Below, one piece after another: positions 1,841-8,187 of a stretch of 64,000 nt of DNA. The DNA is from Nitrososphaerota archaeon (lineage in GTDB: Archaea > Thermoproteota > Nitrososphaeria > Nitrososphaerales > UBA183), in the NCBI GenBank assembly GCA_029784795.1, contig JAFMAW010000002.1, positions 1-64,000 on the forward strand, written 5' to 3'. Below the pieces are notes generated by a model. The model ran no database searches and was not told the origin of the DNA. It saw only the letters and a list, made by a program, of their open reading frames with translations. The translations under genes were made by a program, and so were the position numbers. Numbering within the stretch: the first letter of the stretch is position 1; each line of letters begins with the position of its first letter.

Positions 1841-3172
1841 TCACCCCTGATAGTAGACGACCACCAGGCCCGACCCGCCGACGCCCCCCCACGCGCCCTG
1901 GCGCGCCCCGCAGGCGGTCGTGCTGGAGTAGGATCCCCCGGCCCCTCCCCCGCCTCCACCGGTGTTCGGCGCGGCGCTCCCTCCGGCAGATCCCGACCCG
2001 CAGGCGCTCGCGCCGCCCCCGCCAGCCCCCCCGTCGGCGAAGGGGGACGCCGACCCTCCGCCGCCTCCGAAGGCGCAGAGGCCGCTCGCTCCAGGGAGTC
2101 CCGTATAGATTGCGCCAGAGTCCAGCGAGTCCGCAGGGCTCCCCCTCCCAGGGGGCGTATAGAAGTCCCCGCCGCCACCGCCACCGCCGCCGTAGGTGGT
2201 GTACTGGAGCGCGTCGCTCGCGACCCCCGATGCCCCGGGCGCCCCGCCGGGGACCCCATCGCCGCTCCCGCCGTGAGGTGCTCCGCTGGCTGCGCAGAAC
2301 GCCCCTCCTGCGCCGTTGTAGGCGAAATCCCCTCCTCCGCCCCCCTGACCTCCGCCACAGGACATGAACCCCCCGAAGGCGCTGGCTCCGCCGCTCCCTC
2401 CGCTCCCGCCGTTCGTGGTCGTCCCTCCGGCCGGCCCGCCTCCGCCCCCCTGTCCCACAGTGACAGCCACCGAGCTCGCTCCCTGCAGGTCGACGAACCC
2501 CTGGGCGAAGCTCCCTGCTCCCCCTCCTCCACCGCCGCCGCTCCCGGCCGGCCCCCCTGCGTCGGTTGCGCCCCCGCTCCCTCCACCTCCGCCCCCGCCT
2601 CCGATGCACATCACGTACGCCCAGCTGGCCCCGGAGGGGACGGACCAGGCCACGGACACCGTGAACCTCACCTCCGACCATCCGGGCTGAGCGCCTGAAG
2701 CGGTGTACCAGAAGACGTTGCCCAACGAAGTGAGCAGACCGACAGACGACCCGGGCGGGTTCCCCGACTCTATCTGTTCGTAGCGCGACGCGCATGTGGA
2801 GACCCCCGGGGAGCAGGAGCCCGCGGGGACGAGGGACGACACCGGCACCTCGCCGCCTGCAGGTATGGCTGCAGACGCCGCGAACGAGTATACCGTCCCG
2901 TTGGGGTAGCGCAGTATGACGTGGTTCACCGTCGCTGTGGCCCCGCCGCCGTTGACCGCCTCCAGCCCGGCGGAGGAGGCGCGGAAGCTCAGCGACTCAC
3001 CGGCCCTAAGCGCGTCGACCCCCTGGGCCTGCTGCTCCGCCTGGGACGCCTGCGACTGCAGCGCCGAGGAATAGGCGAGGGTCCCCAGTGCCAGCATGAA
3101 CACCAGGACGAAGATGATCGTCCCCACCACCGACGCCACCCCCTTCCGCCTGCGCGAGACGTTCGTCCCCAC
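1841..3172 (-). CDS. Pilin-like surface protein with long glycine-rich adhesin-like domain
   Basis: 443 residues from a GTG start at 3172. The N-terminus is a class III (type IV pilin) signal: RRRKG, then a ~22-residue hydrophobic helix starting VASVVGTII, expected to be cut after the Gly and assembled by the platform encoded upstream. Residues ~40-160 are an ordinary extracellular region with Cys pairs. From about residue 165 the protein becomes a glycine-rich domain that opens with a W-A-Y-V strand followed by a run of eight glycines. It then shows VTVGQGGGGG and SAFGGFMSCGGG units, a layout like the glycine-rich receptor-binding domains of phage tail adhesins. It is the last gene of a four-pilin operon. 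The gene appears intact despite its low complexity. Function as an adhesive tip or coat is inference. Confidence 0.75.
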   Translation of the reverse strand: MGTNVSRRRKGVASVVGTIIFVLVFMLALGTLAYSSALQSQASQAEQQAQGVDALRAGESLSFRASSAGLEAVNGGGATATVNHVILRYPNGTVYSFAASAAIPAGGEVPVSSLVPAGSCSPGVSTCASRYEQIESGNPPGSSVGLLTSLGNVFWYTASGAQPGWSEVRFTVSVAWSVPSGASWAYVMCIGGGGGGGGSGGATDAGGPAGSGGGGGGGAGSFAQGFVDLQGASSVAVTVGQGGGGGPAGGTTTNGGSGGSGGASAFGGFMSCGGGQGGGGGDFAYNGAGGAFCAASGAPHGGSGDGVPGGAPGASGVASDALQYTTYGGGGGGGGDFYTPPGRGSPADSLDSGAIYTGLPGASGLCAFGGGGGSASPFADGGAGGGGASACGSGSAGGSAAPNTGGGGGGAGGSYSSTTACGARQGAWGGVGGSGLVVVYYQG

Positions 3173-3179
3173 TCACTCC

Positions 3180-3677
3180 CTACGCGGGGACGACCTCGAC
3201 CTCGACGGCCTGCTGCGCCCCGTCGGCGGCGGTGACTGTCACCAGGTGGCTCGAGCCGATGGCGAAGGGGTCCCCCGAGACCACCACCTCTACCAACACC
3301 GCGGCACCTGACCCCAGGGGGGTCGCCACCCTGACCGAGGCGGGGTCTGAGCCGGCGGCTGGGCAGGCGGACGCCAGGAGCCCCTGGTCGGACGGGTCGT
3401 AGACTGAGTAGCAGTAGCCGGCGGAGCTCGGGGCGCCGCTGGTCGACACCACGAACGATCCAAGGGCGGTCCCCGACGTGTCTGTCACGAGCACCGTCTC
3501 CACCGCCGAGTACGGGCCCTGCCTGATGCTCGCCCCGGCGACGGACACCGACCCGCCGCCCATGGCGGCGAAGTACCCAAGGGCCGCTTCCATCACCAGG
3601 GCCGCGCCCCCCATGGCCACCGCGATGAGGATGAACACCTCCAGGAAGCCTGCGACCCCTCTGCGGTCAAGTCTCAA
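3180..3677 (-). CDS. Pilin-like protein with class III signal peptide
   Basis: 165 residues from TTG at 3677, overlapping the 3' end of the preceding pilin gene by 11 bases, so translation is probably coupled. The N-terminus MRLDRRG is followed by a hydrophobic helix of about 22 residues beginning VAGFLEVFILIAV, with a Glu near position +5 of the expected mature protein as in type IV pilins. The remainder is a beta-rich, Ser/Thr/Val-rich domain with two Cys (GYCYS and SACP). I recognise no named family beyond archaeal pilin-like. It probably forms part of the filament together with its three neighbours. Confidence 0.7.
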   Translation of the reverse strand: MRLDRRGVAGFLEVFILIAVAMGGAALVMEAALGYFAAMGGGSVSVAGASIRQGPYSAVETVLVTDTSGTALGSFVVSTSGAPSSAGYCYSVYDPSDQGLLASACPAAGSDPASVRVATPLGSGAAVLVEVVVSGDPFAIGSSHLVTVTAADGAQQAVEVEVVPA

Positions 3678-4161
3678 CTTGTACCTCTCCTCCCGCGGCG
3701 TCGAAGGCCACCACGGTCTGCCCAGATGGGTGGGCGCACCCTCCCAGGGTGATATGGAACGCCACGAGGGACCCTGGGTCGAGGGGAGGAAAGCCTCCGG
3801 AGATCAGCGTGGAGTTGACGACGAAGCCTGCCGGCGTGAAAGCCGCCGACCCATAGTCGTAGAGAGCCAGCGTGAGGTTGGGTCCCTCCTGGATCCCCTG
3901 ATATGCCGGGCAGGCTGACGAGGGGGAGACTGTGGAGTAGACCAGGGCGACCTGCGTCCCGGCTGAGCTCTCGCGCAGGGACGCTCCGACGGACGCAGAG
4001 CCTGAAGCGAGGCCGAACTGGCTGGTCGCGGCCGCGACCACCATGCTCCCAAGGGAGAGGGTCACGCCTATCATCAGGAGGGCCGCATAGAGCTCGCTGA
4101 CGCCTCGCCGAGCGCCCCGGGGGCGAAAAACACGGGAGGGAGCCGTGGTCCGGCCCCCTAT
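3667..4161 (-). CDS. Pilin-like protein, start codon non-canonical or frameshifted
   Basis: Encodes a clear class III signal (GARRG followed by the helix VSELYAALLMIGVTLSLG) and a ~125-residue extracellular domain with two Cys pairs. No ATG, GTG or TTG lies in frame between the upstream stop and the signal peptide. The start given here is an ATA at 4161-4159 that overlaps the upstream stop as ATAG (164 residues). Alternatively, a missing base in the run of five T on the coding strand (plus-strand AAAAA near 4126-4130) would put a GTG in frame just before FRPRGARRG. The next in-frame ATG upstream, at 4470, would read through the preceding gene in the wrong frame and is rejected. The gene is real; its first codon is not settled. 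Confidence 0.62.
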   Translation of the reverse strand: MGGRTTAPSRVFRPRGARRGVSELYAALLMIGVTLSLGSMVVAAATSQFGLASGSASVGASLRESSAGTQVALVYSTVSPSSACPAYQGIQEGPNLTLALYDYGSAAFTPAGFVVNSTLISGGFPPLDPGSLVAFHITLGGCAHPSGQTVVAFDAAGGEVQVET

Positions 4162-4748: not shown

Positions 4749-6419
4749 TCAGCGGAGGAGGAACCCGGAGAGTGAATGCGCGCCGGGGCCCGCGAGCAGC
4801 ACCACCGCGGCCGCGGCGAGGGCGACGTTGAGCGACGCCCGCCAGGTGTTCCTCACGGTGAGGTCGGCCACCTTCGCGCCGATCAGCCCCAGGGCGGCGG
4901 CCGACACGACGATGAGGAGGTCAGAGACCGTCGAGAGCCCCGGAGGCGCCGCGCCGATATGAAACGCGCCGAGGCGGACTGCGGAGAGGCCGGCGCGGGT
5001 CCTGGAGCTGAACGTCGAGAGGATGGCCCTGACGAAGGTCACGCCGAAGGCGAGGAGCAGGGGGGACGCGTACGAGAGGGCGAGGTAAGGCTTCATCTCG
5101 GCGGTCGCGTTCTTCCGCATCTGGATCATCCTGTCGGCGAAGCTCGAGACCTGGAAGACGGTGTCGACGCTGCCTCCCCCAGAGCGGCTCATCTCCCCCA
5201 GGAGCAGGAACGTGAGCCTCCCCAGGGCGCTCCTGCACGTCGGCTTCGCTTCGTCGAGGGGGATCCCGGCCTTGGCCCTGGCGGCTACCTTCGAGAGCAG
5301 GGCGGCGAAGGGGCGGGGGTAGCCGCCGTGGGCCTCCATGGCCACCACTGCTTTGGAGAGGTCGTAGTCGTGCCTCTTGTACTCGAGGAGGTCCTTCAGG
5401 AACCTCGACAGCCCCGCCTCGAGCTCCCTCGTCTCCGCCATCTGCCTCCGCACGGACGCGCCGTAGACGGTGAAGAAGACGAAGAGGGCCGCAGCCGCGG
5501 AGGCCCAGGGACCGCCGGCCGCGGCGCCGAGGGCGGCGAAGGGGAGGGCTGCCAGCGCGCTCCTCCCCGCCTTCCCGTGGGGCGCTTCCTCGGGGGAAGG
5601 CTGCATCCTCCCCGCCATGTAGAGCAGCGCCACGGTGAACGCAGGGACCCCCACCCCGGTGAAGAAGGCGAGGCCGACCACGGAGAATCCGGGGGAGAAG
5701 ACCCCCACCACCATGAGGAGGAGCGGGACGACCCCGAACACCGTTATCATCATGCTCCCTACGATCCCGACCCGGGTGACGTACCTGGCCCAGGCGTCCT
5801 CGAGCTCCCTCAGCAGCGAGCCGCTCTCGGCCGTGAGGTATGCCGAGACGTCCCCTCCGCTCCTGGCCTTGCTCGTGTACCCGAGGAGGAAGCTCCCCAG
5901 CTTCTTCGAAGGATGGAGGGAAGCGAGCCGCTCGAGGGAGTTGTTGGGGTCCATGCCGAATATCTCCACGTCACGGCGCACCAGCAGCGCCTCTTCCCTC
6001 ATCGACGGGAAGACGTCGCTGGCCGACACCCCCTTCAGTATCGAGTAGAGGGGGACCCCCGCGCCCCCCAGGACCCCGACCAGGACCGAGAAGAAGGGGA
6101 GCTCCCGCTCCACCCCCTCCATCCTCCTTGCGACCTGGTCCCTCAGCCGGACCTCAGGGGCGAAGAACGGTATCAGCGGCGCCAGCGAGATGAAGAAGAG
6201 CCATGGGGAGACCAGGGCGCCGGCGACGACGGCCAGGGGGATCGACGCCAGGGCCGCCTTCGCAGCCCCGTCCACAGATTCCCACGCGATGGCCGCGGGG
6301 TTGCCGACCCGCCCAGACCTCTTCAGCAGGTCTGACATCCTCTGGGACCTCCAGAGCGCCGCCTTCGCCAGAGAACGTGTCCCCCAGCGGCTCCCGCTCC
6401 TGGCAGGGACGTCCTTCAT
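4749..6419 (-). CDS. TadC/FlaJ-like membrane platform protein (T2SF domains)
   Basis: 556 residues from ATG 6419, six bases after the stop of the secretion ATPase gene. It carries two T2SF-like cytoplasmic segments (about 90-215 and 325-450) separated and flanked by hydrophobic helices (about 57-85, 215-265, 285-315, 450-470, 500-525 and 535-555). This is the arrangement of the inner-membrane platform of archaeal pili/archaella and Tad systems, on which the ATPase acts to extrude pilins. It is duplicated-domain and somewhat longer than FlaJ. Whether the filament is an archaellum or an adhesion pilus cannot be read here; the absence of other archaellum genes favours a pilus. Confidence 0.82.
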   Translation of the reverse strand: MKDVPARSGSRWGTRSLAKAALWRSQRMSDLLKRSGRVGNPAAIAWESVDGAAKAALASIPLAVVAGALVSPWLFFISLAPLIPFFAPEVRLRDQVARRMEGVERELPFFSVLVGVLGGAGVPLYSILKGVSASDVFPSMREEALLVRRDVEIFGMDPNNSLERLASLHPSKKLGSFLLGYTSKARSGGDVSAYLTAESGSLLRELEDAWARYVTRVGIVGSMMITVFGVVPLLLMVVGVFSPGFSVVGLAFFTGVGVPAFTVALLYMAGRMQPSPEEAPHGKAGRSALAALPFAALGAAAGGPWASAAAALFVFFTVYGASVRRQMAETRELEAGLSRFLKDLLEYKRHDYDLSKAVVAMEAHGGYPRPFAALLSKVAARAKAGIPLDEAKPTCRSALGRLTFLLLGEMSRSGGGSVDTVFQVSSFADRMIQMRKNATAEMKPYLALSYASPLLLAFGVTFVRAILSTFSSRTRAGLSAVRLGAFHIGAAPPGLSTVSDLLIVVSAAALGLIGAKVADLTVRNTWRASLNVALAAAAVVLLAGPGAHSLSGFLLR

Positions 6420-6425
6420 CCAGCT

Positions 6426-8081
6426 TCAGACGCTCCTGGCCTCTTGCACCGAGAACTCCTTGACCATCTTCGAGAGAGCCCCCGGGTCCAGCTCCCCGCC
6501 GGCGATCTGGCCCGAAAGGCGGGCCGCCCTGAGCGCCAGGCTGGCCTGGACCGCGGCCGGGGTCCACCCGAAGCTCTCCGCTATCTCGTTCAGCCTGAAC
6601 GAACGGTCGAGGACCTCGGCAGGGGTGGTCGGGGTGAACGAGTCGCCCGTCGGGTCGTACCTGAACACGTTGACGATCTCGTGCTCGTAGGGGCCGGAAG
6701 GCTTGAGCTCGTCGACGCTCACCACCCTCCGCACCACCCTCCCGTCCTGGAGGACGACCTTCCGCACTGTGGCTATGGCGGTGATGTCTCTGATGTGCCC
6801 CTCGGAGAACCTCATGGGCGGCGTGGTCAGCCTCTGGACGCACCTCTCCGCGTTCTCGGCGTGGATGGTGGCCATGGTGGAGAAGCCGAGGGTGATGGCC
6901 GCGGCCACGGTCTCCGACTCCTCCCCCCGCATCTCGCCCAGGCTGAGCACCGTGGGCGAGAACCGCAGGGCGAGCTTGAGGAGGTCTGCCAGGCCGTACT
7001 CGTAGCGCCCCGCGAGGGGGGACAGCCCGGCCCGGTAGGACCGCGTCTTCAGCCTCTGCCAGTGGAGGTGGTCCGGGAGGCTGATCTCGAGGACGTCTTC
7101 TGCGGTGACTATCTTGAACTTCGGGTTGGCGAGCGCCAGTATGGCGTTCATCAGCGTCGTCTTCCCGGAGTTTGCCTCCCCGCAGACCAGGACGTTGGTG
7201 GTCCTCTCGAGCAGGAGCCAGAAGTACGCGGCCATGAGCACCGACAGTGTCTTGTGGGCGTGAACCTCCTCGTAGGGGACCGGCGATCCAGCCGCCTCGC
7301 GGGCCCCCAGGGCCGGCCACCGTGCCTTCTCCGGCGACGCGAGCTGGGCCAGGGTTATGGGGCTCTCCCTCTGCTTCCTGATGGCGTAGGTGGACCCCGG
7401 CCTCGAGATCTCGTCCCCCAGGGTCGCGGTCACCCTCCTGTCAGAGGCCCCATGCAGCGTCACCTCAAGGGCCGGCTGGGCGAGGGAGACGGTGGTCCCG
7501 CCTAGTTGGGCGAGCCGCCGTATGAACGCCTGCAGCCTATCCTCGGACGGATATACGACGTCGGTCTCCATGAACATGTATTCCGAAAAGTTCCGATGGA
7601 TCACCCTGACCGGCCTGTCGTACCTGACCGCGGAGATCTCTTCGATGAAGTCGTCGCTCATCAGGGGGTCTATCTCCCAGAACCCCGCGAAGTCCCGCAG
7701 GAGGAAGTAGAGGAGCTTGTCGTGCGACTCCTGGGCCACGGCGACGAAGCCCGCCTGCTCCGCGGTCCGCCAGACGTAGTCTGCGACCACCTCCCTGGGG
7801 TCCCCGAACGAGCCGGTCGGGATCGAGTCCAGCAGGTTCACCCTCAGGACCTCGAGCGCCCTCGCCTCGTCCTCGCTCAGCTTCGGGGACCTGACGAGGT
7901 ATCTCCCGACCCCGTCCTGCTCCACCACGAACACCTCTGCGGACGCCTCAGGCTTCGCCCCGGCAGGGACCCTGTAGGTGTCGATGACGCCGGGGATCTC
8001 CTCTGGCGCTTCCACCCTGCGCTCCGGCTGCGCGTCTTTGGCCGGACCCTTCCTCCGAAGGAGTCCCCTCACGCGCGACAT
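6426..8081 (-). CDS. Type II/IV secretion system ATPase (FlaI/TadA/GspE-like)
   Basis: Powers pilus assembly with the downstream platform protein. Walker A GEANSGKT lies near residue 300, Walker B SLGEMRGEE near 378, and the region between and after has the His/Arg-rich boxes typical of the family (TMATIHAENAERCVQRL). The N-terminal ~130 residues carry the TPR-like or N1 region. ATG 8081 (551 residues) is preferred over an in-frame start at 8141 because a TATA box at 8104-8110 sits ~26 bases upstream of it and inside the longer version. The last ~100 residues form an additional C-terminal segment beyond the ATPase core. Confidence 0.88.
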   Translation of the reverse strand: MSRVRGLLRRKGPAKDAQPERRVEAPEEIPGVIDTYRVPAGAKPEASAEVFVVEQDGVGRYLVRSPKLSEDEARALEVLRVNLLDSIPTGSFGDPREVVADYVWRTAEQAGFVAVAQESHDKLLYFLLRDFAGFWEIDPLMSDDFIEEISAVRYDRPVRVIHRNFSEYMFMETDVVYPSEDRLQAFIRRLAQLGGTTVSLAQPALEVTLHGASDRRVTATLGDEISRPGSTYAIRKQRESPITLAQLASPEKARWPALGAREAAGSPVPYEEVHAHKTLSVLMAAYFWLLLERTTNVLVCGEANSGKTTLMNAILALANPKFKIVTAEDVLEISLPDHLHWQRLKTRSYRAGLSPLAGRYEYGLADLLKLALRFSPTVLSLGEMRGEESETVAAAITLGFSTMATIHAENAERCVQRLTTPPMRFSEGHIRDITAIATVRKVVLQDGRVVRRVVSVDELKPSGPYEHEIVNVFRYDPTGDSFTPTTPAEVLDRSFRLNEIAESFGWTPAAVQASLALRAARLSGQIAGGELDPGALSKMVKEFSVQEARSV

Positions 8082-8103
8082 CTCGCAGTGAGCACGCCGC
8101 GGA

Positions 8104-8110
8104 CATTTAA
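8104..8110 (-). promoter_or_regulatory. TATA box of secretion ATPase/platform operon
   Basis: TTAAATG on the minus strand about 26 bases before ATG 8081. Its position fixes the start of the ATPase gene and implies a leaderless transcript. Confidence 0.6.
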
Positions 8111-8187
8111 CGGGCCCCGCCGTCCGCGCAGGCTCCCGCACCCCCGGAGCGAAAGGATTTGATGTCGCGCCAGTGACGGGGGGCGCC

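Follow-up and report, generated by a model that had tools for sequence, protein, structure and literature searches.

What is encoded by the glycine-rich gene that ends a pilus operon near the start of contig JAFMAW010000002.1 of the Nitrososphaerota archaeon assembly GCA_029784795.1, and what its glycine-rich part may serve for, are the questions raised by this locus, which was analysed in a window comprising the first 64,000 nucleotides of the contig. The original prediction saw in its product a pilin fused to a domain of the phage-tail-adhesin type and forming a new type of archaeal filament. The gene probably encodes a modular type IV pilin, in which an archaeal pilin with a class III signal, a long helix and a beta stem bears a grafted C-terminal head that would bind a receptor. 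Moreover, the analysis suggests that this head is an interchangeable recognition module of an archaeal pilus, a phage-type glycine-rich "hand" here and other hands on the same stem in relatives.

The pilin open reading frame (ORF) lies on the minus strand with a GTG start at 3172, and closes a row of six genes on that strand, in the order ATPase, TadC-like protein, three small pilin-like genes and the glycine-rich pilin (Table 1); it is thus co-encoded with a pilus ATPase and TadC, as expected of an archaeal type IV pilin. The class III-type signal predicted earlier, RRRKG/VASVVGTIIFVLVF (RRRKG/VAS, the slash marking the predicted cut), was read by eye; family models support it only weakly, the archaellin/pilin N-terminus model (TIGR02537, Table 1) and the UpsA pilin model (18.4 bits, cut-off 130) both falling short. 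The predicted fold of residues 15–159 is nearest to solved archaeal pilins and has the long N-terminal helix and beta domain of solved archaeal pili, which supports the pilin nature of this half. Since the Ups cut-offs are missed (UpsF 210 of 400 bits, UpsA as above), the Ups pilus is the nearest named family without the pilus studied here being a member of it. The secretion ATPase matches the archaellum ATPase model (E 1e-67) and the BasE model (E 2.1e-58), both under the cut-offs. With Ups and bindosome models as their nearest, the assembly genes belong to an archaeal type IV pilus system, and the head of the pilin alone is unusual, so that "a new type" of filament was an overstatement. That the pilin enters a filament at all is something we infer, and a filament body may have no room for such bulky heads; the protein could instead be a membrane-anchored adhesin that stands on the cell surface outside any filament and uses its pilin-like start just as a signal anchor, which is judged unlikely. 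A bulky module can be presented on a pilin and bind ligands, as described for PilB of Streptococcus sanguinis, where modelling allows it only at the tip (PMC8179133).

The head (residues 161–443) makes up 64% of the protein, close to the 60% or so first estimated, and contains 106 glycines in 283 residues (37%) as against 20 in the first 160. Its predicted structure, a single-chain model, is a TNF-like base with glycine-rich loops, of which 192 residues superpose on the Pam3 fibre gp24 at 2.4 Å with 33% identity. The expected likeness to glycine-rich phage fibres therefore stands, while an architecture of glycine-rich layers alone gives way to a Pam3-like TNF-like domain with loops. The two-part models, and heads having relatives outside pili, agree with a modular pilin of the PilB type. 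Searched with a profile of the whole alignment, the PDB sequences gave no match at E 0.1; the relative P0018 matches the Bxb1 brush (E 0.0048), and the link between head and phages comes chiefly from the folds.

Some orthologues carry, at the same locus position and on the same stem, a different, lectin-like jelly-roll head; the glycine-rich domain fused to the pilin is real, and is one among several alternative heads. A tree of the assembly machinery (ATPase plus TadC) comprises 18 rows, nine of them glycine-rich; outside it stand L031, whose operon is incomplete in its stretch, the short-contig loci L033 and L038, L041, the weak matches L042–L049 and the G029 fragment. On this tree the jelly-roll-headed L032 (G024) and L030 (G021) fall among the glycine-rich carriers, and a single glycine-rich clade is rejected by the approximately unbiased (AU) test (p 3.3e-8), in which the head of L037, not a glycine-rich row, was counted as a jelly roll. 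On a stem tree of 104 rows, whose bootstrap had not settled, the head type must change four times, and well-supported branches force no fewer than three of these changes; L039 and L041 were labelled T2b there by a crude pattern, wrongly as judged by eye, and neither is glycine-rich. The stem AU tests used 49 of the 104 rows, namely 20 of the 22 glycine-rich ones (without P0015 and P0016) and 29 hand-chosen rows of the 82 others, and one glycine-rich clade obtained p 0.022 with all 20 and 0.063 without P0014; the AU tests on both trees were run after the trees had been seen, on groups defined by heads. P0014 is 45% identical to the window protein in the stem and 64% in the head, and its 12 nearest stems all bear other heads. 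Over 190 pairs the mean identity is 65.9% for heads and 58.3% for stems, the head being the higher in 159, and head columns where the window protein lacks glycine have a mean identity of 53.2%. The AU results on the two trees therefore support exchange of the whole gene and exchange of the head by itself to about the same degree. It may be speculated, with little confidence, that tail-fibre-like receptor-binding heads are swapped on a conserved pilin stem as phages swap fibre tips, giving the pilus specific partners to recognise, whether kin (for contact or DNA exchange) or other cells, and that a TNF-like trimer could arise from three adjacent subunits at the end of the pilus. As a separate observation, the one-contig genome G019 has two copies of the pilus operon (L034 and L037); in the second copy a PF18998 repeat separates the stem from an apparent jelly-roll head.

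The head is highly conserved: it can be aligned end to end in 20 sequences, some of them near-copies of each other, the other 19 being 56–82% identical to the window protein, and the glycine-rich motifs named at the outset are present and largely conserved among them. Invariant non-glycine residues include W176, P179, C189, F266, C272, Y327, P377 and Y440–Y441, and the invariant cysteines are C189, C272, C293, C366, C391 and C421. Such conservation and the six cysteines would also suit a purely structural module, a stable spacer or cap stiffening or initiating the filament without a specific ligand; however, orthologues place lectin-like heads at the same position, needlessly for a mere cap, and the closest solved head, the Pam3 fibre, is described as receptor-recognising (PMC9608196), which leaves this explanation quite unlikely.

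The resemblance of the head to its relatives does not derive from composition alone. Local alignment scores against four glycine-rich relatives, P0018–P0021, were compared with 300 full shuffles and 300 shuffles with every glycine fixed, and the real score exceeded all of them; P0018, for example, scored 460, while its glycine-fixed shuffles had a mean of 329.6, a standard deviation of 17.4 and a maximum of 390. P0018 and P0021, the two of these four that the PHROG scan covered, match tail families with E 1.2e-21 and 9.4e-21. No DNA tandem repeats were found in the pilin gene, and together with the shuffle scores this led to the rejection of DNA repeat expansion as the origin of the head. The Gly_rich family search envisaged earlier gave a mixed outcome: the window protein scores 21.5 against the Gly_rich_2 (PF21722) cut-off of 24.3, or 25.2 with neighbouring stretches in a genome search, and all three orthologues scanned pass it (P0002 30.0, P0005 26.9, P0014 33.1). 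The sub-threshold score of the window protein and residues 296–356, where the AlphaFold2 confidence measure pLDDT is mostly under 50, weigh against a folded receptor-binding head; apart from that segment, the disordered low-complexity tail that was to refute the prediction did not appear. A low-complexity tail produced by repeat expansion and resembling phage proteins by chance, for which these two points and the 37% glycine might be pleaded, is largely refuted and very improbable. It is also seen that the window pilin gene carries G runs of 6–7, and that the heads of P0015 and P0016 lose frame in G-rich stretches, while L023 and L022, whose stems are near-identical to theirs, keep the frame; either assembly error or slippage-type variation may be the cause.

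In a search of 5.8 billion clustered proteins the window protein itself came back together with 13 near-full-length relatives; P0015 and P0016 were found as well, the heads of which run into another frame and stop short. A search with the head alone returned the same 14 proteins and P0018. The count of 11 glycine-rich proteins among 85 is no census, the 85-protein set being without P0009–P0012 and P0014. Among 46 genomes of the family, 28 have a match at E<=1e-3, several of these being generic pilin N-termini only. The whole glycine-rich form is present in nine (G000, G022, G023, G026, G028, G030, G035, G036 and G038), and a tenth, G029, has a 227-amino-acid fragment at a contig end; the fusion is thus conserved in related genomes, and its absence from all of them, the other outcome that was to refute it, did not occur. 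The fragment (L010, on the 3.2-kb contig C155) is 99.6% identical to the window's head, and represents either a very close strain or a mis-binned contig. In a sample of 398 genomes of the phylum, 15 have a match to the stem model, a strong one in G000 and G019 of the window's genus and a weak one in 13 others (E 5.6e-7 or worse), and Gly_rich_2 matches three, its cut-off being passed only by the source genome. L042 (6304–7848) and L048 (5829–7385), from another genus of the family, show a pilin-like N-terminus followed by ca. 370 residues that by eye look repeat-built (propeller-like); L042 has no Pfam match at E 0.01.

As to the origin of the head, viral capture is possible but not supported. 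At least 599 stretches of viral contigs matched the head alignment, and one locus, L062, was confirmed among the matches listed, being 40% identical over head residues 16–118; the 30 stretches matched by the stem alignment included none that was confirmed. The L062 contig, a candidate cyanophage-like one, carries at 5731–7367 two tandem glycine-rich fibre-like genes with heads ending in GIVVVYEF. The head found no match by tblastn in 50,697 phage records, a result made uninformative by the low-complexity filter. An archaeal viral donor is conceivable because glycine-rich adhesins are described in haloarchaeal tailed viruses, where the tail-fibre adhesin is given as a key host-range determinant (PMC8651126).

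Table 1. Pilin gene, its parts and the remaining genes of the pilus operon in the window.
Feature	Position	Strand	Basis
Modular pilin, 443 aa (amino acids), terminal gene of the pilus operon	1841..3172	-	ORF, 13 near-full-length relatives, 20-row alignment, synteny
Class III-type signal, residues 1–11, ends RRRKG	3140..3172	-	read by eye; TIGR02537 17.0 bits, cut-off 20
Long N-terminal helix, residues 12–57; filament core in pilins	3002..3139	-	AlphaFold2 helix 10–57
Beta-rich pilin stem domain, residues 58–160, common to all head types, ends near GNxFWY	2693..3001	-	
TNF-like and glycine-rich head, residues 161–443	1844..2692	-	
Pilin-like gene, 165 aa	3180..3677	-	signal DRRG/VAGF by eye; no Pfam/NCBIfam match
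Pilin-like gene	3667..4101	-	signal RRG/VSEL by eye; no Pfam/NCBIfam match; upstream end uncertain, listed ORF to 4470
Pilin-like gene, 183 aa	4158..4709	-	signal RRKA/ISQS by eye; no NCBIfam match
TadC/UpsF-like membrane assembly protein	4749..6419	-	T2SSF E 5.2e-15; UpsF E 4.9e-62, 210 bits, equivalog cut-off 400
Type IV pilus secretion ATPase	6426..8141	-	T2SSE E 1.6e-20

The label pilin-like of the three small genes derives from their signals and conserved position; Pfam and NCBIfam name none of them, the 183-amino-acid one having a single chance-level Pfam row. The source genome (1.39 Mb, 32 contigs, 90.88% complete) has a T2SSE-type ATPase at three places, Gly_rich_2 only in the pilin gene, and a candidate prepilin peptidase (Peptidase_A24, 21.1 bits, cut-off 26.5). 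A HerA-like gene (368–1837) runs convergently toward the pilin gene, preceded by a NurA-like gene (28–1837 for the pair, plus strand; L091 3853–6322); the HerA ORF occurs in 18 of the 20 loci L021–L040 and the NurA-like end in 18 of the 21 loci L021–L041. A part in Ced-type DNA import was considered for the HerA-like gene and rejected, its top NCBIfam match, CedD, reaching only 33 of 600 bits in a tie with a HerA model. As the preceding gene scores 20.6 bits with NurA (cut-off 21), a HerA–NurA repair pair seems likelier, and neither gene is counted in the pilus system.

Cleavage by a peptidase, extrusion by the ATPase and TadC and a helix in the filament core are established for type IV pilins. 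In the modular pilin proposed here, prepilin peptidase would likewise cut off the class III signal, and the ATPase and TadC protein of the operon would insert the helix into the pilus core, at the tip or along the side. The stem at the filament surface would then display the head outwards, its glycine-rich loops projecting from the TNF-like base as in the Pam3 fibre, and the loop ends would touch a binding partner, in all likelihood an S-layer protein or glycan on a second cell, or else a surface. As the putative function, the recognition of another cell through one of its glycans or surface proteins is preferred over a structural cap or a non-pilus anchor because of the precedents of PilB, UpsA and the haloarchaeal virus adhesins (PMC8179133, PMC7064770, PMC8651126).

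The pilin is a concrete candidate for the binding subunit of its pilus, and the different heads found in nature on one stem provide controls; to our knowledge, the ligands of archaeal pili and the subunit responsible are known for few lineages. It also ties the recognition fold of phage fibres and ALK/LTK receptors to a cellular filament, and widens the modular-pilin idea from bacteria to archaea. Bacteria are known to have modular pilins, and phages to have glycine-rich TNF-like heads; an archaeal pilin uniting the two, with lectin-like heads as alternatives in an orthologous locus, did not turn up among the results listed in searches of the open-access literature, nor did a paper on a glycine-rich or TNF-like head of any archaeal pilin, though the search terms may miss one.

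Among known systems, PLTL and the N-terminal domain of BC2L-C are TNF-like bacterial lectins without a pilin part. The Pam3 tail fibre gp24 (PDB 7ypx, 7yfw) resembles the head in its TNF-like domain with distal glycine-rich loops and a helix at the opposite end, and differs as a phage baseplate fibre, a trimer described with its own chaperone, gp25 (PMC9608196), whereas the head here sits on a pilin stem and no chaperone was recognised in the operon. The tail wing brush gp33 of mycobacteriophage Bxb1 (PDB 9d93) differs likewise as a part of a phage tail. The haloarchaeal virus adhesins, likened by description only, are glycine-rich and aimed at archaeal cells; they are virion parts, described as T-even-adhesin-like (PMC8651126). 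In S. sanguinis, PilB (vWA) and PilC (lectin) similarly consist of a pilin with an added functional module of a kind also found outside pili, with the bacterial pilin motif IPR012902 and other modules, whereas here an archaeal pilin bears TNF-like/glycine-rich or jelly-roll heads; the word archaea is absent from the main text of that account (PMC8179133). UpsA of Sulfolobales is likewise an archaeal pilin that recognises partner cells, described as able to decide cell–cell recognition, with S-layer N-glycans as the proposed partner (PMC7064770). UpsF is also the nearest named family of the TadC protein, which scores far under its cut-off; the specificity of UpsA, however, was traced to a short part of the pilin itself (PMC7064770) and not to a grafted head.
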